64,000 nt of DNA from Argopecten irradians (lineage: Eukaryota; Mollusca; Bivalvia; Pectinida; Pectinidae): contig NC_091139.1 in assembly GCF_041381155.1 (NCBI RefSeq), positions 7,812,383 through 7,876,382 of the forward strand, in the 5' to 3' direction. A program made the position numbers and the translations under genes. A model generated the notes under the pieces. It worked only from the letters and a program-made list of their open reading frames with translations. It made no database searches and had not been told where the DNA came from. Below are positions 14,491-53,066 of the stretch, in pieces (the stretch's first letter is position 1; every line of letters starts with the position of its first letter).

Positions 14491-14619
14491 AAAATCGGGG
14501 GTTCGTGTCCGAGATCGATATCTAATTTGTGAAATCTAACTTGAAAAAAATTAATTAAGAAATTTTCAAAATTTGTGTAAAAACTTTCAGTTTACATTTG
14601 AAACCAACAGTTAGATAAA

Positions 14620-15840: not shown

Positions 15841-15984
15841 TGTGTTAGCTATGTAAAGCCTAGTCAGAAACTTAGTGATATTGTGGAAGTAAAGTGTCTG
15901 TTTAAGAGCTCAGAGTTGATAGTGTCTTGGAGAAGTACTCTCCCTTCATTTTGAAGGTTTTGTTCACTACTAGTGATATACCAA

Positions 15985-17450: not shown

Positions 17451-17613
17451 GAAATATGTAGATAGAGAAGAGAGCAAGACCTCTCAACCTATTGCTACTT
17501 TGGCCTCTGTACCATCATAAAGTTAAAGTACAGCTGATATTTGTAAATTAGACTTTGATGGTGGTGTACAAGGTGTAGGTTTAGACTGTGGTGTTAAGTT
17601 ACGGAACTCAGAT

Positions 17614-28874: not shown

Positions 28875-28941
28875 ATGGATACTAAACTCGTTTTTGTTCT
28901 CTGGTCATTACTGTCGATTTCAGCAGTGGTCAAGTCGTCAG
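28875..28941 (+). CDS. Receptor 1, exon 1: signal peptide
   Basis: ATG then a hydrophobic core (LVFVLWSLLSISAVV) and small residues, ending in phase 1 at G|GTTAGT. The second gene has an equivalent first exon at 52997, which supports the start. Confidence 0.85.
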
Positions 28942-31900
28942 GTTAGTATTATACGTTTAATTACATTGAATACGTTATATAGCTATATATAGGCAGTCGA
29001 GGTGTCGGGGGTGAAGGTGTATTTCTGTCCGATGATCTAGTATTCTATATCATAATGACATTGGATTAACAATGCTTTAGTTGCATAGCCATATATAGTT
29101 AGAAACACCACTAGGAAGACTCTTGCAAAATCTAGAAGCTCATCACGTAATTGGCAGGATGAAATTAACTAGGGGATAAGTTTCTAGGTTTGTGCAAGGG
29201 ACTTCCTGGTTATGTTCCTAACTATATATAGCAATGCAACATGACCATTGTTCTGTTTTGTAAACATGTACATGTATAATACTGTTTATGGAGTTTATCA
29301 AAATAAATTTGTGGATACCTTATACGTTATACGTTTCGGAAAACTAAATAATATTTTTACAACATTCAAGATTAAATTGTTTTATGAACGAGTCAAGCAT
29401 ACATATTTACATAAAATCACTAAAGGGTTTAAAATAAAAACATGTCGAGCTAAAAATGGCTTATTAGACACGGATATACATACATAGAATCTTGGTGTAA
29501 CATGGGATTTTGGTAAACAAAAATTAAGGCTTTAACAAGTAGTTATGCATAATTCACCTGGTGTAACATACAGTATCTGATGCTTTTGTATATTTAAGTC
29601 ATTGGAAATTACTATGTCTATGGAAGCTAACCCATACAAACAATTTACATTTGTATGTGCCCTTTAAATGCATTTTTTTAACGACTTGATACTTTTTACG
29701 ACATTATATACTTTATATGGTATTGATTTGCATATACATCTTTAAATAGTTTTGTTAGATGTGTATATAGGATGAGTATGGGATGCATGGGTTGAAAGAA
29801 CTCCATAAAGTAACAATATGTTTTATGGTAATATGTACAAAATTACTGAACTTTATTTTTGGCAAAATGTTGGTAAGAGTAAAGGGTAACTCTTGCACAA
29901 AAGGACAGAGAACTTTCTTCCGATATAACATAGCAGTAAGAAATTTTATTAATTTGGGTATTACGCCCTAATAATTTAACATTTCTTGTAATGAGTATTT
30001 TTATTGTCTTTATTGGTCAAAAAATGGAAATCCTATTAAGATTGAATAATGATAATTTCTTTAGATTTAATTTGTTATGTTATAAAATCTAGATATACCT
30101 CAAAAAATGAGTGTACTCTTATTAATAAGCGTTTGCTTCATGGTTTATGTACACTCAGTTGTTTGTTATATCTCCTTTAAAGATGCTCCACCGCCGACAG
30201 AGCATAAATAATACCCATTATTTGAACAATAACTGATGTTTAATCGTGTATATGCGTGTCAAAAAAAACATATAAATCTATGTATTTTGCAATCGGTGTA
30301 TGTACAATCAGTACTTCGTTCCATAAAGGGTATAATGTCAGGATTTTTTTTTCGGGGAAAATAATTATTTTGTATTTTTTTGTCTTGAAGTTAAATAAGA
30401 AGCTAAAACTTTTCAATGGTGGGGATGGTGTAAACTATGTAACGTTTGTAACTGAAGAAAAAACTTATTTATCTGCTCTTGTTTTTGATGAAGGAAAATA
30501 CCATTTGTCAGCGTTGGAGCATCTTAAAAAATTATTCAGGTTCACCCTCGATTGTATCGTTTAAGTAGAAACCATTTCTAGACCAAAATGTGCTTTTCTC
30601 TGCTCGTGCGTGTTTGGCCTACAAGACATAGCTTTATGTACCATCAAATTCATAACAACGGCGAGCGAGTTATTCGTTGCATTTGAAACACTGACCGAGA
30701 GTAGACATTATAATAGGTAACGGTGACACCAAGAAATCATACTTTTATTTCGGCATATTAACAATAAAATAATTAACAAAATCAAGGCATGTATGGTAAA
30801 AAAGACAGCAAATTGTCATTTAAAAATATATAACGCATGGATAAGTAGGCCTTATGTTCAAAATTTAATTATACAAACAATCAAACAAAGGCTACCTTTG
30901 TATGTAAAATAATAAGTACTGACCGTTTCAATCAAAACTCAGTATTCGTTTTAAAAATAATTCTGAACAAAATAAAGACAGGCCTATTTTCAAGCAGCCC
31001 TAAAAATTACGATGGAGATACGAGTACGAGTCGTACAGAAATAAAATTGCATGCACAAATAGTACGATGTAGGTAAAATCTGTGTCATTGCACAATCTTC
31101 TTTTAGTAGCTATAATGACTATATGAATCATTTTGAACGTATTGAAGAATGAAAGTTTTTCGATATCAAAAGCAGAGACAAAAACATTTTCCACTGGCTA
31201 GGTTGGAACCTTGGTTGATTAAAACATATTTTTATGTACAGTCTGTATAATTTTGATATATCATAGGAGTAAACATGATATATTAAAAAAATCAAATTAT
31301 AATATATAATAAAATGAGAATCTTAATTTAAATATTTCAAAGTTATCCTTACCACTGGTAACATTGTAACAAGTCAAAGTTCTACGTACGTGTCTGGGGG
31401 CGCCAGATGGGTCAGCTCTAAAGCCGTGGACGGATGTACTGCACAAACCATCGGCTCTGACTGCTGTACACACACGGATACCGGAAAGACCGAAGCCTGG
31501 TGGCAGGTAGATCTACAACAACAGTTCGTCATAGAAACAGTGCATATCCTATACAGAGGTAAGTCTAAAATTATTCTTGGTGACTTACAAGTCACCAATA
31601 ACAAATCTGTATTGACAGGTTTGGTTTTACCATTATCTTATATAATAGACATCATATACCTGTTGTTCCAGCTGCTGTTCTATCTTGTCAACCCATGGAA
31701 CGGGGCAGCTAATCGAAACGATGCTTTAGTGTCCATTTGATCAGTAAACAAAATAACTATTTCCTCAAGCATTTATATTCAACTAAGCTATTCCATAAAT
31801 GTCAGATAAAATGCTTTTCAACAATATTCACTTGTGTTTCTTTTTTATATTTCTCTATATCACTTTTCATTTATCATATCATTGTCTTAGAATGCATACC

Positions 31901-34900
31901 CTGTGTCGTGTTGTAAAGATGTAAAAGTATTGTTCCGTCAGCTCATACACGTATTGTCCACAAGGGAAATGTTAACACATTCTTCCGACTTTATTCCCGT
32001 GAATGAATGTGATAGTCCATCATATTATTACTTTGCATTCTAAAACCAAAAAAAATATTTATTTGCAGATAAATTTTCAGTTTCTTGTAATATTTGTTAT
32101 TTCTACCGGTGAAATTGTGTACTTTTGGTGATAGTCTGAAAGTATAAAATAATTGCATAATGCCAAACATACAGGCAAGCATTAAAGCTGACAGCTTACA
32201 TAATGATTTAGTCCATTTGAGACTCTCATCATCCAAATTAGAATCTATTACTAGGTGAAGCATATTTCTTTGTTATTTATAGATGATGGAACACTCGATC
32301 GACTGGCGGGATTTGAGATCTATCTGTCTAATACATCCGTCTTTAGATCAGAAGAACGTTGTTACCAGGACAACACTGCCTCGCTAGGATTAATGACCGC
32401 CATACAGAACGTTACGTGTACAGGTGTCGGACAGTATGTTACTATCTACAATGATCGACGGGTAAAGGCCGAATCCTGGTACTCGGATGATGCTATATTG
32501 GAACTGTGTGAGGTGTTCATTTACGGTAAGTTCTAATGTTAGTATGCACCAATACTTTGTTAATAAATGAATATCAATATTAGACGTAACTGTATAATAA
32601 CAGTACATGTAAAAAACGAATACCCACATGAATAATATTGCTGAATTATTTTGGTACATACAAAATATGTAAGATTTGTCGGAGCTCTAGACTGCATGAG
32701 AAGTAGTAAGATTAAGGTAAATGTCAAATACTAGTACATGTATGCAATGGGTTCATATATTGTATATTAATAATAAATCAGTCCGGAAAGGATGACAAGT
32801 TCCTGTAAAATGATAGAAGTGCTCTTTACTTGCAAATAAAGGTAACCGAGAAGATTCAAACACAGACTGGTTGCCACCCTATATGATGAATGCTATATAT
32901 AAGTGTACTTCTCTATCTAAATGGCTATTATAATGACATTTCTAATCAAGCAGGAAGAATGTATTTTTAATGTGGTTGATAGTACATCTATGTAAACGAA
33001 ACCCATTGATGGTGAACAATAAACTTCCCTTTGCACAAGTCAACCTAGAGAGACACCCATACGCTAGTTATAAACGACAGTCGTTACTCATTGACTGCAA
33101 TGGTTCATTTAATAAATATATTAGATATGTTCCAATTTCCGCCACTTTCATTGTCTGATACACTGTCACGTGGAGGGCGATATTTAGCATATTGACTCGA
33201 TGTTTCCAATTTTAGGAAGCATATTGACTCGAAGTTTCCATTTTTAGAATCTCTGAGTCAATATTTTCTATTGTGATGTCACACCTGAGTCAATATTCAT
33301 ATTATGACGTCGACGTCGTGTCATTCAGGAATATATAGTCGAGCCATTCTCACTGCTTTCTATTTTACTTAGCATGAAGCAAACGTTGAAACTAATTATC
33401 ATATTTAATATAAGAAATAAGGACCGTTGTTTCCGTTCATATGGTGTTATATTGCCCTTGTAGAATTTCATTATTTATTCTACCCAGGTAATACAACACA
33501 ATATGGACATCAACAAAGGTCCATGATAAATATATATGTTATGCATAAATGAAATAAAAAATAGTAATAAGTTATAATTAAATCAGGCTTATTTAGTGTA
33601 CAAAAGTTACCATCCTTGTGATAATCTATTTCCTAATGCTTGTCAACTATCTATTGAAGGCTGTACTCTCGGGAAGTTTGGAAATGGACATTGTAATGAT
33701 GACTGCTTAGACTGTCTTAGTAACATATGTCACCCAACATCCGGGATATGCGGTAAGAATGTTTGTCTAAAATATATTTAAGCTTGGTCATCAAAGAATC
33801 CGATCAAATAAAAAAGCAAATGCCTTATGAAAAGCATTAAGTTAGTCTAAATCTTAAAGTTATGGCACGTTTGAGTGTCTTTCACGGACAAACACTGGCC
33901 ATAATTTCCTGGCCGTGATTTCTTCATCCTTTAAATTGCTATTCAATACGTAGTATTTGTCTCTCTTCACATGTCTCACAAGGCATTGCGGCTTCACATA
34001 TGCTCACATATCTATTGAGTTAAACCTCAAATACACCCCTTGTCGATAACCAACAACTTGTGAAGTGGCAATGTTTACCAATATCATCTGAATCCGGTCA
34101 AATCCCCATGTTGGTTACCGCATATTCATTACTGTGATTGCTGTACGGGTGAATAATAATCTCAATTATAAACTAAAAATGTACATAAAAAGTACAATAA
34201 AACCCAACTTCAGATATAGCGATAAATAACCTGACGTTAAGAATCACCAAAGGACTTTTATCTTAGTAACACTTAGCTTGGTAGTATTTCGCCATAACAA
34301 TCATGTGTTATACATAAAGTGTATTACATTGAAAAAGGCTTTTTTTATAATGGATTTAACTTCTCTCAATTTGGAATCTTTCTACATAGAATTCTTTTCA
34401 ATACAGATAATTGTGCAGCTGGATATCACAGTTTGGTTGATGTTTGCATTCCATGTCCTACAAACTGCGCGAGAAATACCTGTGATGGTTCATCAGGGGC
34501 TTGTACAGGTACTTTTTTCTCAATGGGATACTTTTCCACATGCTACAGCTTTGTAAGCCCTTGGGATGGACTGATAGAAACCTTCATCTTTTAACAAAAC
34601 CGATTTTTACTTTATGAGAACGAGGACAAACTACAGCAAACATAAACAAGGGCAAACTACAGGTCACGAACATAAACAAGGACAAACTAAGGTAAGTGAA
34701 CATAAACAAGGACAAACTACAGGTTAGTGAACATAAACAAGGGCAAACTACAGGTTAGCGAACACAAACAAGGACAAACTACAGGTGAACGAACATAAAC
34801 AAGGACAAACTACAGGTGAGCTGACATAAACAAGGACAAACTACAGGTAAGCAAACATAAACAAGGACAAACTACAGGTGAACGAACATAAACAAGGACA

Positions 34901-37900
34901 AACTACAGGTGAGCGGACAAAAACAAGTACAAACTACAGGTTAGCAAACATAAACAAGGACAAACTACAGGTGAGCGAACATAAACAAGGACAAACTACA
35001 GGTTAGCGAACATAAACAAGGACAAACTACAGGTTAGCGAACATAAACAAGGACAAACTACAGGTTAGCGAACATAAACAAGGACAAACTACAGGTAAGC
35101 GAACATAAACAAGGACAAACTACAGGTCAGCGAACATAAACAAGGACAAACTACAGGTTAGCGAACATAAACAAGGACAAACTACAGGTGAGCGAACATA
35201 AACAAGGACAAACTACAGGTGAGCGAACATAAACAAGGACAAACTACATGTAAGCGAACATAAACAAGGACAAACTACAGTTAGAAAACATAAACAAAGA
35301 CGAACTACAGGTTAGCAAACATAAACAGGACAACTACAAGTCACGAACATAAACAAGGACAAACTACAGGTTAGCGAACATAAACAAGGACAAACTACAG
35401 GTTAGCGAACATAAACAAGGACAAACTACAGGTGAGCGAACATAAACAAGGACAAACTACAGGTTAGCGAACATAAACAAGGACAAACTACAGGTTAGCG
35501 AACATAAACAAGGACAAACTACAGGTCACGAACATAAACAAGGACAAACTACAGGTTAGTGATCATAAACAAGGACAAACTACAGGTAAGCGAACATAAA
35601 CAAGGACAAACTACAGGTGAGCGAACATAAACAAGGACAAACTACAGGTAAGCGAACATAAACAAGGACAAACTACAGGTAAGCGAACATAAACAAGGAC
35701 AAACTACAGGTGAGCGAACATAAACAAGGACAAACTACAGGTTAGTGATCATAAACAAGGGCAAAATACATGTAAGCGAACATAAACAAGGACAAACTAC
35801 AGGTGAGCGAACATAAAACAAGGACAAACTACAGGTTAGTGATCATAAACAAGGGCAAACTACAGGTAAGCGAACATAAACAAGAACAAACTACAGGTCA
35901 CGAACATAAACAAGGACAAACTACAGGTGAGCGAACAAAAACAAGGACAAACTACAGGTGAACGAACATAAACAAGGACAAACTACAGGTGAGCTGACAT
36001 AAACAAGGACAAACTACAGGTAAGCAAACATAAACAAGTACAAACTACAGGTTAGCAAACATAAACAAGGACAAACTACAGGTTAGCGAACATAAACAAG
36101 GACAAATTCAGGTAAGCGAACATAAACAAGGACAAACTACAGGTAAGCGAACATAAACAAGAACAAACTACAGTTCACGAACATAAACAAGGACAAACTA
36201 CAGGTGAGCGAACAAAAACAAGGAAAACCTACAGGTGAGCGAACATAAAAAAGGACAAACTACAGGTGAGCGAACATAAACAAGGACAACTACAGGTAAG
36301 CGAACATAAACAAGGACAAACTACAGGTTAGCGAACATAAACAAGGACAACTACAGGTTAGCGAACATAAACAAGGACAAACTACAGGTTAGCAAACATA
36401 AACAAGGACAAACTACAGGTTAGTGATCATAAACAAGGGCAAACTACAGGTAAGCGAACATAAACAAGAACAAACTACAGGTCACGAACATAAACAAGGA
36501 CAAACTACAGGTGAGCGAACAAAAACAAGGAAAACCTACAGGTGAGCGAACATAAACAAGGACAAACTACAGGTGAGCGAACATAAACAAGGACAAACTA
36601 CAGGTAAGCGAACATAAACAAGGACAAACTACAGGTTTAGAAAACATAAACAAAGACGAGCTACAGGTTAGCAAACATAAACAGGACAACTACAAGTCAC
36701 GAACATAAACAAGGACAAACTACAGGTTAGCGAACATAAACAAGGACAAACTACATGTAAGCGAACATAAACAAGGACAAACTACAAGTGAGCGAACATA
36801 AACAAGGACAAACTACAGGTCAGCGAACATAAACAAGGACAAACTACAGGTGAGCGAACATAAACAAGGACAAACTACAGGTCACGAACATAAACAAGGA
36901 CAAACTACAGGTTAGTGATCATAAACAAGGGCAAAATACATGTAAGCGAACATAAACAAGGACAAACTACAGGTTAGTGATCATAAACAAGGGCAAACTA
37001 CAGGTAAGCGAACATAAACAAGAACAAACTACAGGTCACGAACATAAACAAGGACAAACTACAGGTGAGCGAACAAAAACAAGGACAAACTACAGGTGAA
37101 CGAACATAAACAAGGACAAACTACAGGTGAGCTGACATAAACAAGGACAAACTACAGGTAAGCAAACATAAACAAGTACAAACTACAGGTTAGCAAACAT
37201 AAAACAAGGACAAACTACAGGTTACGAACATAAACAAGGACAAACTACAGGTGAGCGAACAAAAACAAGGACAAACTACAAGTGAGCGAACATAAACAAG
37301 GACAAACTACAGGTCACGAACATAAACAAGGACAAACTACAGGTGAGCGAACAAAAACAAGGACAAACTACAGGTTAGCGAACATAAACAAGGACAAACT
37401 ACAGGTAAGTGAACATAAACAAGGACAAACTACAGGTCAGCGAACATAAACAAGGACAAACTACAGGTGAGCGAACATAAACAAGGACAAACTACAGGTT
37501 AGCGAACATAAACAAGGACAAACTACAGGTGAGCGAACATAAACAAGGACAAACTACAGGTCAGCGAACATAAACAAGGACAAACTACAGGTTAGCGAAC
37601 ATAAACAAGGACAAACTACAGGTTAGCGAACATAAACAAGGACAAACTACAGGTGAGCGAACATAAACAAGGACAAACTACAGGTCACGAACATAAACAA
37701 GGACAAACTACAGGTGAGCGAACATAAACAAGGACAAACTACAGGTGAGCGAACATAAACAAGGACAAGCTACAGGTCACGAACATAAACAAGGACAAAC
37801 TACAGGTGAGCGAACATAAACAAGGACAAACTACAGGTTAGCGAACATAAACAAGGACAAACTACAGGTGAGCGAACATAAACAAGGACAAACTACAGGT

Positions 37901-40900
37901 CACGAACATAAACAAGGACAAACTACAGGTTAGCGAACATAAACAAGGACAAACTACAGGTGAGCGAACATAAACAAGGACAAACTACAGGTTAGCGAAC
38001 ATAAACAAGGACAAACTACAGGTGAGCGAACATAAACAAGGACAAACTACAGGTGAGCGAACATAAACAAGGACAAACTACAGGTTAGCGAACATAAACA
38101 AGGACAAACTACAGGTAAGCGAACATAAAGGGAAATCATTTTAATCACATCATCTAGTAGTTGATCGACCTTAACAAAATTCGAGCAGAACCGTCTAAAG
38201 CAAATGGAATACGATTTAGCATAACTGTTGCATTATGTTGACTTGTATTGATGATAAACGTTTGTATTTCTGCCAATGATTTGGAGTCATTACACTGCAT
38301 CGAAAAGCTGAATGTAACAAAATGCATGTAAGGCTTGCAATTTCATCTGAAGCATGACTACATATGTAGTAAGGATTTAAACTAACTAAATAATGCAACA
38401 TTATATCCAATTCCTAACTAAGCTAAAAGACAAGTGACTTGTATGTTTATATTTTTTTATCTTTACACATATTCAATTAATATTACTGCATTGCATTGAA
38501 AGTTTCAATGTAAAAAAGTTACAAGTTAAGGCAAACAATTACATTAAAGGATTACATCGAATGCCGATGATACATTAAAATGCAATCAGCGACATTGTTT
38601 TATCGATGACGTATGGTAATATCAGATATTTACTGTTGTTTGTTTATTGCTGAATTATTTATTTCAGCAGGTTGTAAAGCAGGATTTTCCGGTACATATT
38701 GTAGATGTCCACTAAACTGTGCTGATCAGAGCTGCCTACCTTCTATAGGACAGTGTTCGAGTAAATATCGATACAATATTGTTTCTTTATATGCATTTTT
38801 CTTTCTCCAGTATACTTTAATGATTATCTAAATTAATATTGATATTATTTAAATACTTACACTATACACACTATCCGTGTTTGGGTGATTATGGATAATT
38901 GTTCTACAAATTAAGGTTGAATAGTATTATAAAATACATCTGTATATGGTTGAACGAAACTCAACGGACCTTTAACAAACTAAAATATTAAATGGTTTTA
39001 CTGTTTAAACATTTCGTATTATGTGACCACAAATGTAAATCCTGTATATAAAAGAGTGGACTAAATAATTTGCAATACCGAAGGTACAAACTAGTTTAAT
39101 ACTATGAATGTGTTAAAGTGTACACGGAATGGTTTGGTATATAAGGCTTGATAAATGCGTCTTTGGATAAAATTTAGAATGGAGAAAGTACGAGTTTCAT
39201 AGCGATTACGGTATAAGAGATAATGCGACTTTTCTCTAGATCACACCTGAAGCCCCAAGCCATTGGCCCCGATTCGGGACCCCTAACCTGTGACGTCACG
39301 AGGACAACGGGACCTATTCTACTGGCAAAAGATAGAGAGGAGAAATTTCGTGTCTGCCATCTAATATAAACTATCTGTTTGTAAATATCGATTTTGAAGA
39401 CACAAATACCTGTGTACATGTCCGATACCTATTTAATGTTATCCTTAATCACAGATATGAGTTTGAAAAACGCTTGAAAACAGGGATTTATACTACCCAT
39501 ACATGTACATGTATATTGATGTACCTGTCTTAGATAAATGAACATCGATATTTCTACGCGATTGCAGCATAATTATACACAATAAAATGTTCATAATAAT
39601 CCACGTACGTTTTATATCTGCGCTGCGGTGGTTGGAACCACATATATGTGAATATTATATCAAGGATTCTTGATTATGTTATCCAAAGCCCGACTCGGGT
39701 CTTTGAATGTCTACTGGTCAAACCCGCTTAACGAATTTCTGACTTTTTTTTATAAACCTGCCCATACCATTAAGTTATGATTCCAAACAGATTTTTTTGC
39801 ATATATGTAAATGCATCTACTAATTGCGTTATATCTGAAATCCATCTATTTGTTTTTTGACGAAATACATTCAGCTTTCATATAATACAGTACACTCGAC
39901 GACTTGTTGATATTTCGCTCAAGTTCATACATTAGTGTCTTTAATTGAAAAAAAAATCATGCACGGGTCAGACGAAAACAATGAGACTGAAGATGTCTAT
40001 GTGACAAGTCTAATCCAAGTAGCAGATATCAAGTACAGAACAAAAAACAGAACTGTAAGTAAAGTAATAAGGGATTTATTACTCCCAAGCGAAGAGAGGG
40101 GGTAATAAGTTCCGAGTGACGAGAAATCATGGGGGTTATTGTGGAGTCAATTGTGGTAGCAAGACATTTATTGGCCACACTTTTCCTTTGTGAGAGGTTG
40201 GAAGTATGTAGTAATTCCGAATAGCTGTATACTGCAGTAACTATAACGCGTAGTCAACCGAGACTAATGAGGGGGGCTAACCAGATTACGTAAGAAAGGT
40301 GTTTAGTGACCTGTCACGCTTTGTTGATAAGCTTGCGTCAGGTGTCAAAGGTAAGATCACAGGTAAGTTAGCGATGGACCATCATAAAATTGTTGTATAA
40401 TGTAATATTTGTTTACACTTAAAAAATCCCTGGTTTACAGTTAAATATACCGTTCCAACATAACGTATAACAAGTGTATCAATTACTAGATGTACAGTAT
40501 ATATATTTTTTTTATTTTTTTTATTTTCGAACATTTTACACAGTATATATAAATGGACACTAACACACAAACACTTGCATATGCACTCATTCACAATACT
40601 TAAAAACATCAAATTGTACGTTATGGGACATCCATAAAAACATATATTTACCATTAATAGCAAACCATAACGCACATATATGCATGCTCTCACTCTCTCT
40701 CTCTCTCTCTCTCACATACACACACACACACACTCACATACATACAGACAGACAGACGGACAGACATACTAAAGATGTACAGTATTATATTTCAGAAAGG
40801 GGACTCATTATACATTTGTCTTGTATATATGTTCTGCTATAAACCTACAAAATTTATTTACAAATGGCATGTCGAGAAAGAACGCGATCCTGATTCTGTA

Positions 40901-43900
40901 AATAATAGTATATGAGTCATGAAAAAATCGACGTCCTGCTCACTCCAACGAAAGATCGTCTGTCGCGTGCATTTGTAGACTACATGTATGTACGCCAGAC
41001 GTAGATCTACCCAGCAGATGCTGTCTCTTCGACAACCCCGTATGCAGAGCGCACAACCCTATGCAGCCACATTCTCGTTCATGATATACCCCCACCCTCC
41101 ACCCACCACCGCCCTGTAATTTACTGCTCACCCTCCCCCCCCCCCCTTGTCTATCCCTCCACACCGTGTCATCTTGAACTATGGAACTACATTTTTAAAA
41201 TATTTTCTTCTCGATAAGTTGGTTCTTGAAATCAGAAACATATATACATATAATTATACGTATTTCTGTTGAAATCAATAGGCCTAGAGAGAATTTTTAT
41301 TCATACAGAAACATATTCAAATGGATAATTATATGACCATCATTTTTCGAATTCGTCTCTTTTTAGATCACATTATGAAAAATGAATATTCCCGAGGTTT
41401 GATAGATAATTTTAGTAAGCTGTTAAAACAGAGATAAGAGTTAAATGTACCAGGAACATAAATAACGTATACATGTTTCCTCTAATCTACATATGTATTT
41501 AGCCTGATTTCAGTTGCAATATTTCCTATTATATATATAATTAAATCGTCAACATAACTGTATACTGTATATATATTTGTAAAATTCTCGTAACCCCATT
41601 TCAGGAATACATATATATGTTCCCCTTTGTGCTATAACCCCACTACCAAACACTTCACTGCCGTTGTCCTCGTGACGTTCACATCCGCAATATTCCCCCA
41701 AATCAGCATGCATATGAGCTGCCGATTGCCTGATTAGCAGTCCGATATACAGGTAAAAATCGAGCACTTCGGAGGGCGGTATCTCGGTACTGAAGTGCAA
41801 GCCCCGACTGTTTGATGCGAGTTTTCAACATTCTTGTCAGGCGATCAAACAGGAATAACATATCTAAAATATACTTTCCGTTCCGTTTACACTTTAAATC
41901 AGGTCCCCTGTCCTCATCAGCATTTCGTAACTATTTTAGTAATTTTCACCTTACAAACATCTAGGAACAGATACATGTATTATGCGATACATATGTTTTA
42001 GGACCTGAACGTATTACTTTATTCCTATGGACAATTCTATGTTTAGCGTTATTCCTTAAAATAAATAAATTTTTCTGTTATGTTTTTTTCGATGGCTGAA
42101 TTAAAGGAATAAGAATATAAACCAGGTGGTATGAATTTAGGGTTAGTTCTAACGATACATGGTTGATTTAGTGAAATTCTTTTTCCCCCCCTTTAGAAGT
42201 TTAGTTATAATTCAATATGAGAACACCAGCTCCAGATAAACCAATTTAAGCGAAAACCTGTTGTATATAATAAAAGGACCTGTCGTGTGATATAATGTTT
42301 ATTACTTATTTCAGATTGTAACGATGGGGTACTACGGACCTGACCAGTACACCATGATCCAACTGGCCAGTTAGTGACTAACACGTAGTGATAAAATTAT
42401 CTGGGGGATATGTTCCAGTAAAGTGGGACAGTATATCTCGGATAATGTAATTATGTTTCTGCACTAAGATGATTACACAAATCCGACCCGTGTTATTTGG
42501 TCAATTTCCTGTGTTTTATCACAAAAACTTAACTGAAATATCTATGTCACCCTGGTAAAAAACATCCTTTTCATATACACTGTGACACATAATGCACACA
42601 GACTCACCATTAAAGGCCCAATATCCGTATCTGCTTGATTTTTTCATGATTCAGAAGAATTAAAAAAACATCCTGTTGTAAATCATGCTGAGGTAGGACT
42701 AAACCGAAGTCAAGATGGACGGTACCGATTCGGAAACTTTAAAAAATAATATGTAAAAATAAGTAGAAACCGCTAATTGAACTTTAATTACGCAGTCAGT
42801 ACAATACAAATGAACAAACGAATGACAGCAATGGTTGTTTTATGTTAAATCTACAGGGATGACTTGCAAACTACGTAAACAAACTATGTAAACATGAACA
42901 CATGTACACCACACGTACTTACCATAGACATGGCGCGCGTGATCACAAAATAAACAATTTTTCCGAACTTTCACGAGAATAGGTCATGACCTTTTCCGAC
43001 TTCCGTTCGGCAACAATCGTAACTTCCATGACGGCGCATTTCAAAGGGAGGCATGTTTACATGCAACGATTTTAAACTTGTACTTTACCAATATTAGTAA
43101 GAAATAATTAATAGACATTTTAGATTTAGCTTAATTTTAGCATTATAAGCAAATGGTATCAACATCTAGGGCTAATTCTAACTTTATTTTGTTGTTGTTG
43201 ATAGCTACGTATAGTGTGGCCTCAAGGTTTATGTTACAAAATACAAAAGCGCATTTTTATACTACCGTTAATACATTACTAATAACAAGCTACAGATTAC
43301 TATTAAAATAACTAATTAATTGACGTCTGATATAATATACTTTTCTGTTTTAGACTGTAAATGATGGATACTACGGACCTACCTGTACACCTAACTGGCT
43401 TTTCTTGCATTTTCATTAACCAGAAAAACAAGGCTCACAATTGACACCTTATGTCCTGGATGATGCTTCGTAGACTTTGTACTCTCAAACAAAACATTAT
43501 AAGAATCAGACATTTAAACATACAAATATGAATAACTGTGATTTTAAGTTTTGATTTCTATTTTTCTATTTCATTGTTTTATAATAATAATAATACTTAC
43601 AATATTTTCCTATATTTTTCCATCTTTTTCAGAATGTGAGGTTGGTTTCTACGGTGACTATTGTAACCAGAACTGTCCGTCTAACTGTAAAGACAATGTT
43701 TGTGACATGGCCAATGGTCAGTGCGCAGGTATGGCACGTACTGTAACCGTACATAGTATGACACAATCAAACTTTAAAGCAAAACTGATATATTTTGTAT
43801 GAAATTCATCTTTGTCCGAAAATAATGAAATACAAGCATGCTGTATTGAATGTTTTTATGGTCTCCTTTCGCCTGACTTCCGCAAGGTTCGCAAATACAG

Positions 43901-46900
43901 CAAATAGCTATCTCTGAGTTGTTAATTTCCTCTTTTATTAGAGAAAACAACTTTCCATGCATGACCATGCATCTAAACAGGTAAAATATGTAAAATCAGA
44001 CATTTAAACATACGAATATGAATAACTGTGATTTTAAGTTTTGATTTCTATTTTTCTATTTCATTGTTTTATAATAATAATAATACTTACAATATTTTCC
44101 TATATTTTTCCCTCTTTTTCAGAATGTGAGGTTGGTTTCTACGGTGACTATTGTAACCAGAACTGTCCGTCTAACTGTAAAAACAATGTTTGTGACATGG
44201 CCAATGGTCAGTGCGCAGGTATGGCACGTATTGTAACCGTACATATTATGGCACGATCAAACTTTGAAGCAAAACTGATTTGTTTTGTATGAAATTTATC
44301 TTTGTCCGAAAATAATGAAATACAAGCATAATTGTATGTTTATCTTAATTATACTATACAGAATCAACCGTGTTAGAGTAGAAAGATGTGTTTTTTTATT
44401 AACACTTTATTCTATAACAATAACTAATATCAAGTGAGTATCATTAAATTTTGAATGAATGGTCGATTATTCTTTGGTATTATCACTAAATTAACATTTT
44501 GCATACCATGCAGCCTGATTCGCCATGTTTGGTGGGGTGGGGCTGGAGGGGGTGGTAGGGTTGGGAGATGGGGATGTAAGGGTGGATACGACCAGAGAAT
44601 AGTGTCCAAAAATGCAAGCTATAGATTACTATTAATTAGCTTATCGTCACGGCGATTTGGTTTCACGTTTTCCTGGCCAACGACTTCGCGAATCACAGTT
44701 AGATCGCTGTATTGAATGTTTTTATGGTCTCCAATAGCGCAGGTTTGGTTTCGACCTGCGAAACGCAGCTCCAATAATGTGCAGTAGAGGAGCTAGTTCC
44801 GAATGTCACACACTGACCGCATAGTGAACGCGGTGGTCAGGGAGGTGGTCAGGGATGATACCAACTACTTCATTGTTTATGATTACCGGTTTACATTATG
44901 TTATTTCCTATGTAAATCATAATTTGACTGCGGGCTACAAGTTTAAACATTGTTAATCTCGAAGTAAAAAAATGTAGAAATTCCTGTATTTACATGTAGC
45001 TACGCTCTTCCGAGGCCTTGCTTTAGATTCGTATTACTTTGACAATATTCATTATATGTTTTTCTCGTGTATATGATAAAAAGTACATGCATACACTTGC
45101 TTTCTCTAGAATGTGATATCGGCTTCTTTGGGAACCACTGTGACCAGACATGTCCTGGAAACTGTGAGAATCGCACGTGTAACAAGGACAGCGGTCTGTG
45201 TATAGGTAAAAACATTAACGATATTGTAGATACAAATATTTGCTTTTAAAATTGAAATTGGCCATTTTTCATACAGTCCACTTAGTATCCAGTTACCTCA
45301 TCTACATTATATAATTGCATGTCAGTAGTTTAATACGAGCTGGAATTAGTCATTTTTCACATAACCCGTATGGTATCCAGTGACTCTCTTTGTGATATTT
45401 TGCCACAACATTAATACGACCTGAAGCGCAGGAAATTCGTCGTGACGTCACATCACTTGTGATGATATTGCATAGGAATTAGAGGACGATGTGATAAAGA
45501 AGTGGTCGCTATTGTCGATGTTAATATCTTCGAAATACAAATTAAAGTATAATAATAAAGGAGTCTGATAGTGTTTACTTTAAATAAAATTTCATGAAAT
45601 TAATTTTTCTTGTCAAGGCTTGTTTGTAAATACAATAAAAATCATGAAGCATATTAGAATTGCTCTCATATATGATACTAAAAATACCATATACTTTTAT
45701 TCCTTGATTTGTAATTTTTTTAAATAAATATCTTCAATAGTAACTGAATAATTATTTTCATCGAGTGTGATGGAAGCTTAAATGATATTTTGCTTGAGAA
45801 ACAATGGATATTCTCAAGATTAAATTCGCATCGATTTACGCAATTCGTTGTGCATTTTGGCTGCAAATGTGCAGCCTAAATTGGTTATTAAAACTTATGA
45901 TACAAAATATCAAATCATTGTTTTTCAGACTGTAACGATGGATACTACGGGCCTACCTGTACACCATGCGCCACAACTTGTAGTACTAACACATGTGATA
46001 AAACAACGGGAAACTGTCTACGTAAGAGCATTTAGCCGTGAGCTAGGAGGGTCCCACATGTGCATATAATAAATATTTACGAGTATGTAAATAAATATTA
46101 TGATAGCAACATACATCTACAAACTTTTCCCACGAATGTGATGTGGGCTTATTTGGGAATCATGGTGGCCAAAAGTGTCACGGAAAGTGTAAGCACAGCG
46201 GACTATGCAGAGGTAAATAAAACAGTTATTGGGGTTTTAGGCAAACCTAAGGCGGCTTATTAGGGCCACTATATAATTTTCTAGCTTGTACGTACACGTC
46301 ATTATCTTGTATATACAACTTAAGATCTTGTAAGTACAACGTAATACCACGAAGGTACAACTTAGTATCTTGTACGTACAGCTTATTAACTTGTACGCAC
46401 ACGATATTACATTGTACGTACAAGTTATTAAGGTGTACGTACAAACTATTAAGTTTTACGTTCAAGATATTAAGTTGTACGTACGAGATAAATAAAATTG
46501 CATAATGGCCTTAATACGCCGCCGTACCAACCAATATGGCGTATGTCAAGATCAACCGGAATAACAAGCCACTTCAAACCTTACTTCTCTCGTTTAATCT
46601 ACAGAATGTGAACCTGGATTCTACGGTGACATGTGCAGTCTGATGTGCCCAGATAACTGTCGTTTTGGAAAATGTAATATGCAAAGCGGGCAATGTATAG
46701 GTACTGTATTTTATTCTGAGATATAGCTTTAAGGAATATTTCTTCTTAAATCTGAAGTAATTGGCTGTTTTCTTTTGTTGTCGTTGCCAGTATATTCTCT
46801 CCATTTGAAACAAATTGTATGAGGGTTCAAATAGTTTGTTTTAATTAAGTCTTTGTCTGCGATAGACTAATATAATCTCTGTTACCCCTTGGTGTGAGAC

Positions 46901-49312
46901 AGGAGAATATCAACTCGAGGGGTAAGATTCAAAGTTGTCAAAAACGAGGCTTTGCCCAGTGTCGGGATCTGTGTAAAGGAAGAGAAGGGATATTGCATAA
47001 TCATGAACATTTATAGATAAATTCGATTCAATGTAGATAAAAACTAAACACACTTTTTTTTCTATTTCAATTTTATTGTTTAATTCAAAAACATATTTTA
47101 TTTGCTTTTTTAAAGTTGGCCAAAAAGATTGGGCACAATCTAATTTAAGTAAGCCTTCCCTGAACATACATGCAAATGTACATACCAAAAGGAGTTTTGT
47201 TCTATACATGTACATGAGTTAGATCTAATTAATTGATTCCGTGCACTATCTGTCAACAATTGGGAAATAGCCTCATACAGGAACTATTCACTGATTCTCA
47301 TTTAAGTTATCTTGTAAATCCACTCTCACTTTGATAATATATCTCTGTGACTTACACAGACTGTTGGTGAATTGATCAATCCTCGTTTTAATGAAATAGA
47401 TTATGTTCGTGCTTTTCCTTTCACAGAATGCATTTCCGGCTTTCACGGTAATGTCTGTGATCAGGCATGTCCAGATAACTGTGGAAATAGCATCTGCAGT
47501 ATACAGAACGGCCAGTGTCTGAGTAAGACCATTTTATATTCATTTAAAGATATTAGCTTTGTCATTACATACACCGTTGACATTTTCCTCTGATTATATT
47601 TCTTAGGTTTGTGTTTTAGGAACGTGTCGTCAATATCATCTGACGACCAAATATGTGTATATGATTCAAAAGAGTGAGTCAGCAAAGAGGCAAATTGTTA
47701 GTTAAAATAAAGAACAGCATTGCTTATACAATCACAACTCTACTGTCGAAAGAATAAGTCAAAGTCGACTGAAACAATAGCATATCTGGAAAATCAGTTT
47801 AATAAACAGCTTAATAATCTACACATAATAAAGGCAAAACTATGTATGTGTATATGAATGTACCGAACTACTTACTGACGATTGAATGAAGCTTTTTATT
47901 GTATATATTTTATTTGATCTATTCTCATTTTGTTTTACTAGTACCATTACCAGAAAGGCAAACAGACGACACATGTTCGGTAAGTTAGGGATGTACGCTT
48001 TGTATTTTGAAAATACACAGACATATATATGAAAGTGCATAAGATATATAACAACAGTCTATACATTGTGTTTACAAAGCGATGTAAACATACGTTTAAA
48101 CCATCGATGGGGGAACGGAAAATTGAAAAGGTGTTTTGTTCTTTTATTCAGTACACTGGATTGTATACAGGTTTCGCTATTCTGGGAGCTTTCCTAGGGA
48201 TATCTGTTTGTTTCAATATCTGCTCGATTGTGCTTTTTCTACGACAGGCGTAAGTAAACATATTTTAAAGTAACATATCAATTAAGGATAAATAAGCTTA
48301 AATAATTTCTAAAAGTAATAGAATATATGTAACTAAGATTTATCACATGTCATATGGATATATATTATATATGTGTTGATTAAAACCTTTATTTACACTT
48401 CGTAATTATGGAAACCAAAACCGAAATGTGTTTTTTTAATTTACATTTTATTTTTACTTTTATTTTGTTTAAACATCGTAATTTAGAAAGAAGATAAAAT
48501 CACCTAATGATCCACCAGAAACGTTTGGAATGCAGCAAAGTCGTAAGTCTTAAGCTTAAATTACAGATGACAAACTGGTAGTTATATACATGTAAAACGC
48601 ACTTATAAAATGTAACGAACTTCAGGAGACCTGTATATGACATTCACTATACGAGAGACGTTCGTTTTAAAGAAAGTGCGAATGGAAATCAAATTGAAAA
48701 TAAACATAATTTTTAATTTTGTTACACATTATTCATGTTTTGGCGGGAATTCAATTAACATAGGAAAAAACTATTCTTTTTATTAAAATATGATAATGCA
48801 TATCACATGCACTGTGAAGCAAAGTCTTTACTGAAAGAGTCTTTATTGAAAGTGTTTATAAAGGGTCATAACTGATTGGCAATTTAATATTTAATTGTAA
48901 AATTGCTACATGAATGAACTAATTCGCTATGTAAAAAATTAAATAAAAATAAAAAATAATATAGTACAATTGCTGATAATACTATTCAATCATACTATTT
49001 CATGTTTTTTTGTTACAAATAAAACATTGTTCTAGCCGAACACATTATTTTAGTGATTTTCAATTATCCTTTCACTCTAGCATTACTACACATACCTTTC
49101 AGATGCATAATGGGCATAAACAAAGTAAAGTAACTATGATAATTTATAATATGTATTATTTCAACTTTCCTATCTAATGATAATGCATTTTCCAATGAAC
49201 AGATTGTTTAAATGTAGTTTTTTTATATCATTTAGGTTCTGAAACCCATAACTACGAGGGATTAGATGTGGCTAAATTGGACAACGTCAAAAACATCTAC
49301 GATAGTATCTAA
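28875..49312 (+). CDS. Lectin/EGF transmembrane receptor with ITAM-like tail (16 coding exons, 551 aa)
   Basis: Assembled by eye from splice sites; exons are listed separately and sum to 1656 nt with matching phases. Order: signal peptide (residues 1-22), F-type lectin (FTP, F5/8-like) domain over exons 2-3 (about 23-175), nine EGF-like repeats of about 31 residues with six cysteines each, a short stalk, a transmembrane helix near 481-505, and a tail of about 46 residues with YEGL (Y533) and YDSI (Y548). It should sit at the cell surface with the lectin outermost. The short EGF type resembles repeats of MEGF10, Draper and scavenger receptor F proteins, which bind debris or microbes; that role here is inference. 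One or more extra exons may have been missed, and EGF3 has two possible acceptors. A paralog follows at 52997. Confidence 0.88.
28942..31342 (+). other. Receptor 1, intron 1
   Basis: AT-rich intron of 2.4 kb. Holds the second TTAA-flanked MITE and a segment similar to the gene's own 5' flank; no further exon seen. Confidence 0.7.
30177..30527. mobile_element. piggyBac-type MITE, copy 2
   Basis: Starts AGATGCTCCACCGCCGACAG at 30181 after TTAA, and ends in the complementary GGAGCATC before TTAA near 30524-30527. The right end has lost a base relative to copy 1 at 5142. Lies inside intron 1. Confidence 0.8.
31343..31558 (+). CDS. Receptor 1, exon 2: F-type lectin domain, first half
   Basis: 216 nt, phase 1 to phase 1. 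Contains AVDGC, CCTHTD and WWQVDL, hallmarks of the FTP/F-type lectin fold, and ends ILYR. The acceptor is an AAG site, supported by alignment with the paralogous exon at 60727. Donor is G|GTAAGT. Confidence 0.88.
31559..32282 (+). other. Receptor 1, intron 2
   Basis: A segment at about 31885-31990 still resembles intron 2 of the second gene (about 62395-62510), showing the introns share ancestry. Confidence 0.7.
32283..32525 (+). CDS. Receptor 1, exon 3: F-type lectin domain, second half
   Basis: 243 nt, phase 1 both ends. Opens DDGTLDRLAGFEIYL, contains RCYQDNTAS and closes LELCEVFIYG, the usual end of FTP domains. Two N-glycosylation sequons (NTS, NVT) are present. Confidence 0.9.
32526..33659 (+). 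other. Receptor 1, intron 3
   Basis: No exon. Around 33185-33310 short direct and inverted words (ATATTGACTCGA, GAGTCAATATT) recur and could fold. Confidence 0.6.
33660..33752 (+). CDS. Receptor 1, exon 4: EGF-like repeat 1
   Basis: 93 nt, phase 1 both ends, begins CTLGKFGNGHC and ends GICG. Six cysteines. Flanked by AAG acceptor and CG|GTAAGA donor. Confidence 0.82.
34407..34508 (+). CDS. Receptor 1, exon 5: EGF-like repeat 2
   Basis: 102 nt, phase 1. Starts DNCAAGYHSL and ends SSGACT, with the six-cysteine pattern. ATACAG acceptor, CAG|GTAC donor. Confidence 0.82.
34622..38128 (+). repeat. Giant 31-bp minisatellite (about 113 copies)
   Basis: Lies wholly inside intron 5 of receptor 1. 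The consensus unit contains ACATAAACAAGGACAAACTA followed by CAGGTTAGCG, with GTGAGC, GTAAGC, GTTAGC and GTCACG variants. Blocks of several variant units recur in the same order (for example near 34783, 35925 and 37067), showing higher-order amplification. Strongly A/C-rich on the transcribed sense strand. Many units read CAG|GTRAGC, close to a 5' splice-site consensus. Confidence 0.95.
38668..38760 (+). CDS. Receptor 1, exon 6: EGF-like repeat 3
   Basis: Encodes GCKAGFSGTYC through CLPSIGQCS, phase 1 both ends. The acceptor is CAGCAG (38665-38670), so the exon can start at 38668 or 38671, adding or dropping one alanine without changing frame. Confidence 0.82.
40686..40760. repeat. (TC)n/(CA)n/(GACA)n microsatellite
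   Basis: Runs of CTCTCT, then CACACA, then CATACAGACAGACAGACGG. Confidence 0.9.
42315..42412 (+). pseudogene. Dead EGF-like exon (relic 1)
   Basis: After TTTCAG, ATTGTAACGATGGGGTACTA matches the start of EGF repeat 7 (45929), and ACACCATG and ACTAACAC follow. An inserted base near the start and further changes destroy the frame and cysteine pattern, and the donor is unclear. Confidence 0.8.
43354..43397 (+). pseudogene. Dead, truncated EGF-like exon (relic 2)
   Basis: After TTTTAG, ACTGTAAATGATGGATACTA matches EGF repeat 7 with an inserted base; similarity stops after CCTACCTGTACACC, so the 3' half is gone. Confidence 0.8.
43633..43728 (+). CDS. Receptor 1, exon 7: EGF-like repeat 4
   Basis: 96 nt, phase 1. 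ECEVGFYGDYC through ANGQCA, six cysteines; TTTTTCAG acceptor, CAG|GTATGG donor. Confidence 0.88.
44123..44218 (+). CDS. Receptor 1, exon 8: EGF-like repeat 5 (recent duplicate of exon 7)
   Basis: Differs from exon 7 by one residue (CKNN for CKDN). Splice sites are intact, so both copies can be used together, and phase 1 at both ends means inclusion of either or both keeps frame. Confidence 0.88.
44219..45109 (+). other. Receptor 1, intron 8
   Basis: No exon. A G-rich stretch near 44528-44590 (GGTGGGGTGGGGCTGGAGGG) could form quadruplex-type structure. Confidence 0.5.
45110..45205 (+). CDS. Receptor 1, exon 9: EGF-like repeat 6
   Basis: 96 nt, phase 1. ECDIGFFGNHC through SGLCI; TTTCTCTAG acceptor and TAG|GTAAAA donor. 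Confidence 0.88.
   Translation, partial: NVISASLGTTVTRHVLETVRIARVTRTAVCV
45206..45928 (+). other. Receptor 1, intron 9
   Basis: AT-rich; nothing recognised apart from a TGACGTCA palindrome near 45446. Confidence 0.5.
45929..46021 (+). CDS. Receptor 1, exon 10: EGF-like repeat 7
   Basis: 93 nt, phase 1. DCNDGYYGPTC through TTGNCL; TTTTTCAG acceptor, C|GTAAGA donor. It is the living relative of the relics at 42315 and 43354. Confidence 0.88.
46135..46212 (+). pseudogene. Dead EGF-like exon (relic 3)
   Basis: Similar to EGF repeat 6: AATGTGATGTGGGCTTATTT, then CACAGCGGACTATGCAGAG before GTAAAT. The acceptor is ACG instead of AG, the CxxxC centre is shortened by about 18 nt, and a cysteine has become glycine, so it is not expected to be used. 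Confidence 0.82.
46251..46523. mobile_element. 273-bp MITE with about ten internal 21-bp palindromic units
   Basis: Imperfect terminal inverted repeats of about 21 bp (GGCGGCTTATTAGGGCC at the left, TGGCCTTAATACGCCGCC at the right). The interior is about ten units of 20-22 bp built on a self-complementary TTGTACGTACAA core with a TATTAA-type spacer. It lies in intron 10. The minus-strand frame with a seven-residue period is a by-product of the repeat. Confidence 0.8.
46605..46700 (+). CDS. Receptor 1, exon 11: EGF-like repeat 8
   Basis: 96 nt, phase 1. ECEPGFYGDMC through SGQCI; CTACAG acceptor, TAG|GTACTG donor. Confidence 0.87.
46701..47426 (+). other. Receptor 1, intron 11
   Basis: AT-rich, nothing recognised. 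Confidence 0.5.
47427..47522 (+). CDS. Receptor 1, exon 12: EGF-like repeat 9
   Basis: 96 nt, phase 1. ECISGFHGNVC through NGQCL; TTTCACAG acceptor, A|GTAAGA donor. Confidence 0.87.
   Translation, partial: NAFPAFTVMSVIRHVQITVEIASAVYRTASV
47523..47941 (+). other. Receptor 1, intron 12
   Basis: AT-rich, nothing recognised. Confidence 0.5.
47942..47979 (+). CDS. Receptor 1, exon 13: membrane-proximal stalk
   Basis: 38 nt, phase 1 to phase 0, encoding PLPERQTDDTCS. Bounded by TTTTACTAG and TCG|GTAAGT. Its odd length is exactly what is needed to join the EGF exons to the transmembrane exon in frame. Confidence 0.78.
48152..48249 (+). CDS. Receptor 1, exon 14: transmembrane helix
   Basis: 98 nt, phase 0 to 2. 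YTGLYTGF, then hydrophobic AILGAFLGISVCF and NICSIVLFL, then RQA. A single-pass helix of about 25 residues with basic residues on the inner side, giving the lectin/EGF part an outside location. Confidence 0.87.
48487..48542 (+). CDS. Receptor 1, exon 15: juxtamembrane tail
   Basis: 56 nt, phase 2 to 1. AKKIKSPNDPPETFGMQQS; basic next to the membrane. ATTTAG acceptor, C|GTAAGT donor. Confidence 0.8.
48543..49235 (+). other. Receptor 1, intron 15
   Basis: AT-rich, nothing recognised. Confidence 0.5.
49236..49312 (+). CDS. Receptor 1, exon 16: tail with two YxxL/I motifs, stop
   Basis: 77 nt including TAA. RSETHNYEGL, eleven residues, then YDSI as the last four residues. Two YxxL/I motifs with an 11-residue gap fit the broad ITAM spacing of 6-12. 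Confidence 0.83.
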
Positions 49313-51763
49313 GAATAAATGGAACAAAAAGTGTATGGGAAGGAAACTGTAATCTAAATGTCATTTGATTAACTGAATATTCATATTAATCACATATGTT
49401 TTACTGACCTGTTTTACTCTAATTGTACCTATGATTTCACCTCCAAATATGATAATGTAGCGAAGATAAATCGTCTTTATCCCATGAGGTAAGAGAAAGA
49501 GCATTGATTTATGTAATGTACATCCACATCGGCAAAAGGCTCCCTATAAAGGATTCACAGGTCTGCTAATGGATCATAGACGATTACTCTGTATGTCAAA
49601 GTTGTCATAAACGGATACATATGTAGATCAAAGAATTCTGAAACATTCTTTGGGGCAGTGAGAATAATTCAAAGAATTTGTTCGGGCAAAAACAAGAAGT
49701 CAACTGCCTACACCCTGAAAAATCGATCATGCTAAATGATCAGAAATATCTGGAAGATAAAATTAATATGAAGCAAGAATACTATGAACGTATTAATATT
49801 TTTCATAGAAAATGACGGGTGTGTTAATTTTGTTAGAGAACAACGATGTCATTTTGACGTCATCTCATTTATAAGATATTGTCATATCAATTGGACGTAA
49901 CTTGTGAAGACAGATCCATCACGTCCCCAATGGCTTAGTTTTTTTATACGTTATCTAGGTTACCTGGGTATTTTTGTTCTACTGGGTTTGAATTGTAGGG
50001 TCGTTTAGTCGAAATAGTTATGCTCAATTTATCAAAACATTGGACTTTGAAAGAGAATTGAAAACATCATTTCCTTAATGTATGAAAAAATCTGTACATA
50101 TTTGTAAGTTATCACATAGACTGTCTATTACATATATATCATAAATAAGAACATTTTCATTTTACAATAACGAAGTGCCATTTGTAATAAATATCACCTG
50201 TTGTCTTATTATCAGTGTAAATTTATGCATTGAGTTTATTAAGAACTAATGGCATCTCAATTACGTTGTAGTCCAATTTATCGTATGAATAGATTTTATA
50301 GCGGTATTGGGGTTGTTTTCAAAGTCATTTTGGCGTATATAACTTACGGACAAATCATCTGCAATTTTAGTTCTATAATTTTGAAGTATAGTGTTGTCAG
50401 TGCGATTAGGCTTAATACATTTTTGAAACCCCATCCTATTTATTTATCTAAAGTTTATGATGTCCAAATTAAATGTTATCTTGGTAAACTTAAAGTTTGC
50501 GTTTGTTTTCTATTTCAATGATGAATTCAATAAAAACGAACGTTTTTTTTGTCTTTTCTCACCCTGAATACATGTAGGTATCCGTTAGTAAAAATGCTAG
50601 ATTACCAACCAATATTCTGTATTCAAATGAATATTTATCAATTCGAATATTATCAATTCAACATTTTTATTGTAGTCATCCAGGCACTAATATGTTTTTT
50701 CCCAAAAAACATAGATATATATTTTTTTCCATTATAACAAAGTAATAAGTTATACATACATTATATAACTGTTTCACCAAAATAATTTTTTCTGTGTTTT
50801 ATATAACATCATTCCATGTTTGTTTATTTAATGTTTCTTAGTGAAAACTATTCTAAATCAATCTTTAACATTGACATTACACATGATTTCTTACCATGTT
50901 TTAATATTACATTTATTACTCCAAATTATGTGCAGGACTTGACATTAATATTGTTTTGTGCAGAGACAATTATATTTTTTAATATAAAAAGAACAATACC
51001 TGATAAATACATAGGGACACACATTATATGTACTATAATATGATTATTTTATACTGTAAAGTAATAAATATAATATAACAGGTATTTATTTATTATATAT
51101 CTATTAGTAATTCTATTCTAATTTCATGGTTATTACATTTAGTTTTACAATCACTTTGCCCTATACATTACCTGAACCTAACGGACCACCTGCGATCCTT
51201 TGTTATACATATACAAATTATAAAGGTTTATGGACAATTTATTTAAAGAAGTTATAACAGAAAACTTTTACGTATATTACGTAATAAGTTAATTACTTTA
51301 TTTCTAGTTATATTATTTAAATAAACATACCTTTCAGCACTGTGGCCGTAAAGCACACAGGCTTCCAGCTATAGGTGGTATCTGTCCGGTGCCTATTTTC
51401 CATGTAATTGTGTGGACACACATCCACCAGGGTGGGCGTGCACGTGCAAGGACAGTGTCATGCAGGGTCAATGTGACACACTCCACCAATCCATTCACTC
51501 ACCTCTCTTACGTCATCATAACAACTTACATACACAGATTTACATGTACAGGACATTACATGACACAGGGACATGTAAATCCAGACAATACACAGCGCAT
51601 GTATGTTTTAAGACCTAATATAATATCTTTTATGTACACAGTGAATTCAAACACCGCGACATTCTCCCCTGCAAAGAAAAAAAAGACTCCTTGCATTTAA
51701 ATTACGCCAAAGTTAAACATTTACAGTTAAAATATTGATAAGAAAACCAATGAGCAGCACAGT
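49313..51763. other. 3' UTR and intergenic DNA between the two receptor genes
   Basis: AT-rich. Several open frames occur by chance in low-complexity DNA, and no exon is supported. Confidence 0.4.
50529..50534 (+). terminator. Candidate polyadenylation signal for receptor 1
   Basis: AATAAA followed within about 15 bp by a T-rich tract. Another AATAAA lies just after the stop at 49314-49319. Which is used cannot be told. Confidence 0.3.
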
Positions 51764-52996: not shown

Positions 52997-53066
52997 ATGG
53001 GTTTTAACGAGTATACTTTTGTCATCTGGTCAGTCGTGTTGATGTCAGCAGTGGTCAACGCAGCAG
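52997..53066 (+). CDS. Receptor 2, exon 1: signal peptide
   Basis: MGFNEYTFVIWSVVLMSAVV then NAAG, ending at CAG|GTAAGT. Shares the SAVV ending with receptor 1. Confidence 0.82.

Follow-up and report, generated by a model that had tools for sequence, protein, structure and literature searches.

The DNA analyzed here (the window) is a stretch of 64,000 nucleotides from Argopecten irradians, contig NC_091139.1 (hereafter C6), positions C6:7812383-7876382; related sequences were searched for in the whole genome (846 Mb, 1508 contigs). On the forward strand of the window, between positions 28875 and 49312, 16 exons with consistent phases were recovered, with all 15 introns being of the GT-AG type. 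The spliced model measures 1653 nt, that is, 550 amino acids plus a stop codon (551 codons with the stop included). From N to C terminus, the predicted protein consists of a signal peptide, an F-type lectin domain, nine six-cysteine EGF-like repeats, one transmembrane helix and a 46-residue tail, and it is probably a single-pass activating lectin receptor, with a fucose-type head, a membrane anchor and a tail resembling an immunoreceptor tyrosine-based activation motif (ITAM).

The start codon and the signal peptide (MDTKLVFVLWSLLSISAVVKSS) are located in exon 1 (28875-28941; GT donor, phase 0-1). The first half of the lectin domain is encoded by exon 2 (31343-31558), which carries His66, Arg94 and the AVDG segment and is covered by the Pfam match to PF22633 and the solved-structure (PDB) match to FBP32, and the second half by exon 3 (32283-32525), which carries Arg101 and is 42-74% identical to its paralogous exons. 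Each EGF-like repeat occupies one phase 1-1 exon: repeats 1 to 3 correspond to exons 4 (33660-33752), 5 (34407-34508) and 6 (38671-38760), repeats 4 to 6 to exons 7 (43633-43728), 8 (44123-44218) and 9 (45110-45205), and repeats 7 to 9 to exons 10 (45929-46021), 11 (46605-46700) and 12 (47427-47522), the last being 81-87% identical in three neighboring genes. Exon 13 (47942-47979) encodes a juxtamembrane segment (PLPERQTDDTCS), matched in one of these three neighbors (G3, see below), exon 14 (48152-48249) the transmembrane segment, recognized by hydropathy and in the paralogues, exon 15 (48487-48542) a cytoplasmic linker (KKIKSPNDPPETFGMQQS), and exon 16 (49236-49312) the tail with the ITAM-like YEGL-x11-YDSI and the stop codon. 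An AATAAA hexamer was observed at 49314-49319, two bases past the stop codon, and others at 50186 and 50529 in a search that extended to position 51000.

The first-pass annotation had described a complete gene assembled from splice sites, and this description was borne out, with 16 of 16 exons recovered. Its count of 551 codons plus a stop applies only to one of two tandem (NAGNAG) acceptors of exon 6: the upstream one, with the exon starting at 38668, gives 551 residues, whereas with the acceptor used here the 551 codons include the stop. All of exons 2 to 12 have phase 1-1, so that skipping or repeating any of them would leave the reading frame intact. As a control for chance, the window was scanned for phase-1 six-cysteine exons flanked by AG and GT, a pattern that by its form could not recover the first EGF exon (33660), whose last cysteine is the exon end. 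Nine solutions (seven distinct C-terminal ends) were obtained on the forward strand of 28-50 kb, whereas none appeared on the opposite strand of this region, on either strand of the remaining window, or in any of 20 dinucleotide shuffles. The exon series is thus beyond chance and, as far as sequence can tell, the receptor locus was confirmed as a real and complete gene model, for which recurrence in paralogous genes constitutes the stronger support.

Domain searches on the whole protein matched F5_F8_type_C_2 (PF22633; E = 8.2e-11, 42.8 bits, above the cut-off of 27.8) and, just below its cut-off of 28.2, F5_F8_type_C (PF00754; E = 2.6e-6, 28.0 bits). The PDB search returned seven matches, of which FBP32 was the best (1.9e-14) and SCARF1 the second, on the EGF part (residues 287-443, E = 1.8e-7), the remaining five chains being named Sm-hPAF, lectin or fucolectin-related protein. 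According to the available text of a review (PMC5712786), F-type lectins carry a histidine followed by RXDX4(R/K), as well as a cation motif hhDGx, where x is N, D or S. The fucose triad is intact in the window protein: His66 (in CTHTD) aligned to the lectin histidine, and Arg94 and Arg101, in RDDGTLDR, fell on the RXDX4R segment. An intron interrupts the binding motif of the lectin, the border between exons 2 and 3 lying immediately behind Arg94. By its domain and its His-Arg-Arg triad the protein is an F-type lectin, and it is predicted to bind L-fucose. Hydropathy in 19-residue windows exceeded 1.6 only at the N terminus (starts 1 and 5-8) and across residues 476-507, peaking at 2.33 in the 19-residue window that begins with residue 484, within the transmembrane segment. 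Together with the collinear paralogues described next, the matches to PF22633, FBP32 and SCARF1 and the hydropathy profile uphold the architecture of F-type lectin, nine EGF repeats and single membrane pass that had been proposed.

Three neighboring downstream genes (G2, G3 and G4; C6:7865400-7936482), each on one strand, present the same exon order as the window gene: lectin halves, EGF exons, transmembrane exon, linker and tail. They are not whole copies: the first lectin half of G4 was matched partly, only G3 yielded a juxtamembrane exon, some EGF exons were incomplete, and no place in the three genes had EGF 2 or 3 (exons 5 and 6) as its best match. Exon 1 had a weak match (E = 0.004) in G2 only, the equivalents of G3 and G4 lying, if present, outside the DNA examined. 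Two further collinear loci were located 7 Mb away (C6:404341-419506 and C6:497274-510870), with, among the exons examined, the order lectin half 1, lectin half 2, EGF 1, EGF 2, EGF 3, transmembrane exon and tail; some of their matches were weak, namely EGF 3 of the first locus (E = 0.004) and both tails (E = 0.33 and 0.12). The recurrence of this order in the paralogues makes a chance joining of unrelated exons hardly likely.

The window gene belongs to a family that is large and whose genes are clustered. In the genome as a whole the lectin query gave at least 151 matches at E <= 0.001, own exons included (150 of 271 candidates scored), and most of the lectin matches listed lie on C6. Conservation of the triad was counted over 30 loci, which gave 16 exon matches to the first lectin half and 21 to the second, with own exons included and identical strings counted once; the histidine was kept in 14 of 15, the first arginine in 13 of 13 and the second arginine in 19 of 21 of the rows that had a letter at the position. 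The ratios of nonsynonymous to synonymous substitution rates (dN/dS) of the lectin exons compared with G2, G3 and G4 were 0.27, 0.45 and 0.23, values that indicate constraint on these exons. The corresponding ratios for the EGF exons (0.27, 0.24 and 0.23) were dropped as an argument, since best matches may pair non-orthologous repeats.

The protein ends in NYEGLDVAKLDNVKNIYDSI, in which YEGL-x11-YDSI, starting at residue 532, shows the paired-tyrosine spacing of an ITAM. The consensus of this motif is Yxx[LI]-x6-12-Yxx[LI]; when the window tail was shuffled 100,000 times, 0.22% of the shuffles produced the pattern. Two tail queries (E up to 10), followed by translation of the loci, yielded 18 tails including that of the window gene; six share the window type, 10 belong to a DSTK type and two to a third. 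The strict form Yxx[LI]-x11-Yxx[LI] was present in 15 of the 18 tails, and a 16th (that of G3) ends in YxxV, so that both tyrosines were kept at this spacing in 16 of 18; the exceptions were C283, with phenylalanine in place of the second tyrosine, and C224, which is frameshifted. Among eight of these tails that were aligned, the only invariant residues were Y, L, D, K and Y. For 15 of the 18 tails a transmembrane-type exon (E = 5e-4 or better) was detected upstream, the one of G2 with a stop codon, and none was found in the stretches examined upstream of C283, C6:7975905 and C6:8049952. The tail, previously described as of a signaling type, can be specified as ITAM-like and would signal through this motif. 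Immunoreceptor tyrosine-based inhibitory motifs (ITIMs) have S, I, V or L at position -2 of the tyrosine; we discounted this reading for the tail, as neither tyrosine of the window gene has such a residue there, judged by eye.

Several observations weigh against an activating lectin receptor. The Pfam EGF models EGF_TEN (1.1e-5) and EGF_laminin (0.0011) both scored below their curated cut-offs. In the lectin domain, the His-to-Arg spacing is 27, compared with 24 in the available text of the review (PMC5712786) and 26 in chain 1k12 by our own count in the alignment, this last number indicating that the spacing varies among F-type lectin members; the cation segment of exon 2, AVDGC, fits the first four places of hhDGx and has a cysteine in the last one; and the aspartate of RXD was kept in 8 of 13 family rows, with glutamate in two and glutamine in three. 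The dN/dS values for the transmembrane segment plus tail, calculated on few sites, were 0.72, 0.32 and 0.56 against G2, G3 and G4. The count of 18 tails is biased towards the motif, because the similarity queries were themselves motif-bearing, and several tails are weak matches (E = 0.12 to 8.5) resting on their flanking exons. Finally, YEGL and YDSI could be plain endocytic signals of the YxxPhi type. The receptor would then be real and would serve for scavenging or uptake of fucosylated particles, without ITAM-type kinase signaling, a reading consistent with the fit of both motifs to the endocytic YxxPhi pattern and with the match of the EGF region to SCARF1, a scavenger receptor. We regard it as rather unlikely: a single tyrosine is enough for sorting, whereas the tails predominantly keep an x11-spaced pair, although this argument is weak for a short exon and for tails found by similarity. 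An activating receptor with an ITAM-like tail remains our preferred reading.

The EGF region bears traces of exon gain and loss. Exons 7 and 8, separated by a step of 490 bp, are 95.7% identical over 301 bases, with one nonsynonymous difference in 31 codons; judged by this similarity, exon 8 is a recent tandem duplicate of exon 7. At 46135-46212 (forward strand, as for the two fossils below) lies a dying EGF exon with CG in place of the AG acceptor and four cysteines compared with the usual six; it was left out of the model for its acceptor, and if used it would stay in frame and give a protein of 576 amino acids. At the matching place, a correspondence inferred by position, G2 has an intact six-cysteine EGF exon (C6:7887645-7887740). 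Two fossils of the exon 10 type were also recognized, both with approximate limits: a degenerate one, seen by eye only, at 42317-42410, and a truncated one (NDGYYGPTCTP; tblastn, E = 2e-6) at 43354-43395. Between the dying exon and the next EGF exon, a 21-bp tandem repeat (CTTGTACGTACAAGTTATTAT) occupies positions 46285-46484.

Most of intron 5 is filled by a minisatellite (34635-38129; 31-bp unit, 113.4 copies), whose unit was found at no other genomic place in a search that skipped simple repeats and very common words. The array contains 102 CAGGT, mostly as CAGGT(G/T/A)AG, which look like 5' splice sites when read along the sense strand, and CAGGT(A/G)AG occurs 48 times on its forward strand versus three on that strand of the remaining window. 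Taken together, the fossil EGF exon, the two older remnants, the exon duplication and the splice-donor-like minisatellite reveal turnover of exons, and the number of EGF repeats would change as symmetric exons are added or lost.

The part of G2 inside the window spans 52997-64000 on the forward strand, and the gene continues from C6:7876383 to about C6:7895152. Its probable exon 1 (52997-53066) was delimited by hand from the sequence, and its lectin exons are given by their match limits (first half 60729-60944, second half 63179-63436). A 67-bp tandem repeat with about 71 copies in two blocks (54228-59030) apparently lies in its intron 1. The transmembrane exon of G2 contains an in-frame stop (SV*FNIC), so this copy would be either a pseudogene or the source of a truncated, perhaps secreted, form. 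This stop in the adjacent gene, the fossil EGF exons among good ones and the 3.5-kb minisatellite in intron 5 would all suit a window locus that is itself a pseudogene, or one where family exons lie assembled without coding for a protein; with 16 of 16 exons open, canonical and in phase, and dN/dS below 0.5 in the lectin exons, such a status is very improbable.

An intact receptor, by analogy, most likely serves in activation or phagocytosis, is triggered by glycans and is of the Syk/Shark type. The lectin head would bind fucose-bearing glycans of microbes, food algae or altered self, held away from the membrane by the EGF stalk; clustering of the receptor would lead a Src-family kinase to phosphorylate both tail tyrosines, and a Syk/Shark kinase would bind the phosphorylated pair through its tandem SH2 domains, with engulfment or cytokine production as the output, as in Draper/MEGF10 and in the oyster hemITAM C-type lectins. 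The simplest account would be the circuit of Draper/MEGF10 and the oyster lectins placed under an F-type head, where we infer specificity, phosphorylation and cell type. A role in gamete or self recognition instead of immunity, like that of the F-lectin bindins of oyster sperm, would agree with a family that is likewise large and whose exons turn over, but is improbable, as bindins, according to the available review text, belong to the acrosome and have one to five lectin domains (PMC5712786); EGF repeats, a membrane anchor and a tail of the ITAM-like kind are out of place in such a use.

More tentatively, the multigene family of F-type lectin receptors with full ITAM-like tails, located mainly on one 48-Mb contig, may constitute a repertoire of activating glycan receptors, in which the length of the stalk varies as symmetric EGF exons arise, die out or are spliced, and in which the splice-donor-like array of intron 5 possibly influences exon 5/6 splicing in the window copy. 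If the tail signals, the direct ITAM-type receptors of invertebrates would include fucose-type lectins besides the C-type ones, with at least 18 such tails in the family. It would then become testable how an animal that lacks antibodies converts its many lectins into responses of its cells, and with one exon per EGF unit the length of the stalk can be counted.

Elsewhere in the window, a proline-rich, charged open frame of 464 residues (588-1982), which matched nothing in Pfam at E 0.01, may be the terminal exon of a different gene. Retroelement remnants occupy 12764-18486, with reverse transcriptase matches at 17527-18486 (forward strand, 1.2e-29) and 12764-13258 (reverse strand, 3.4e-6, below the cut-off), and a SCAN-domain match just below the cut-off at 15016-15525.

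Among known systems, the likeness to Draper, MEGF10 and CED-1 consists of extracellular EGF-like repeats, one transmembrane pass and an ITAM or YxxL in the tail; in Draper/MEGF10 the ITAM is a substrate of Src-family kinases and, once phosphorylated, is recognized by Syk-family kinases (both from the available text of PMC8092387). The earlier description as MEGF/Draper-like holds as a likeness, with EGF repeats matching SCARF1 and an ITAM-like tail, but not as membership, which was ruled out: those receptors possess an EMI domain and NPxY, whereas neither was found in the window protein (EMI by Pfam on the whole protein at E 0.1), which has an F-type lectin head instead. With SCARF1 (scavenger receptor class F) the comparison is limited to the EGF region, which is alike, the F-type lectin head being noted for the window protein only. 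The oyster receptors CgCLec-TM1 and CgCLec-HTM share the plan of lectin head, transmembrane pass and tyrosine activation motif, and signal through a half or nonclassical ITAM, Syk and ERK to IL-17 expression, according to the accessible part of a review (PMC13027682). Their head is a C-type lectin, whereas the window protein has an F-type lectin, an EGF stalk and a full two-tyrosine motif; its Pfam scan gave no C-type lectin domain, so that it is not a member of the oyster hemITAM C-type lectins.

The F-type domain with its His-Arg-Arg triad is shared with the fucolectins (eel AAA, MsaFBP32). Mosaic F-type lectins with a predicted transmembrane domain are represented by furrowed/CG9095 of Drosophila (PMC5712786). 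Such mosaics carry CCP and C-type lectin domains, in contrast to the EGF-like repeats and ITAM-like tail of the window protein. In the available text of this review EGF is mentioned once, for an F-lectin protein of Nematostella that combines CCP, EGF-like and further domains. No F-type lectin combining EGF repeats, a membrane anchor and an ITAM was found in the parts of the open-access literature covered, which does not imply its absence from print. The gene thus appears to be a new variant on both the F-type lectin mosaics and the ITAM-type lectin receptors, whose interest would lie in its tail and in its family.
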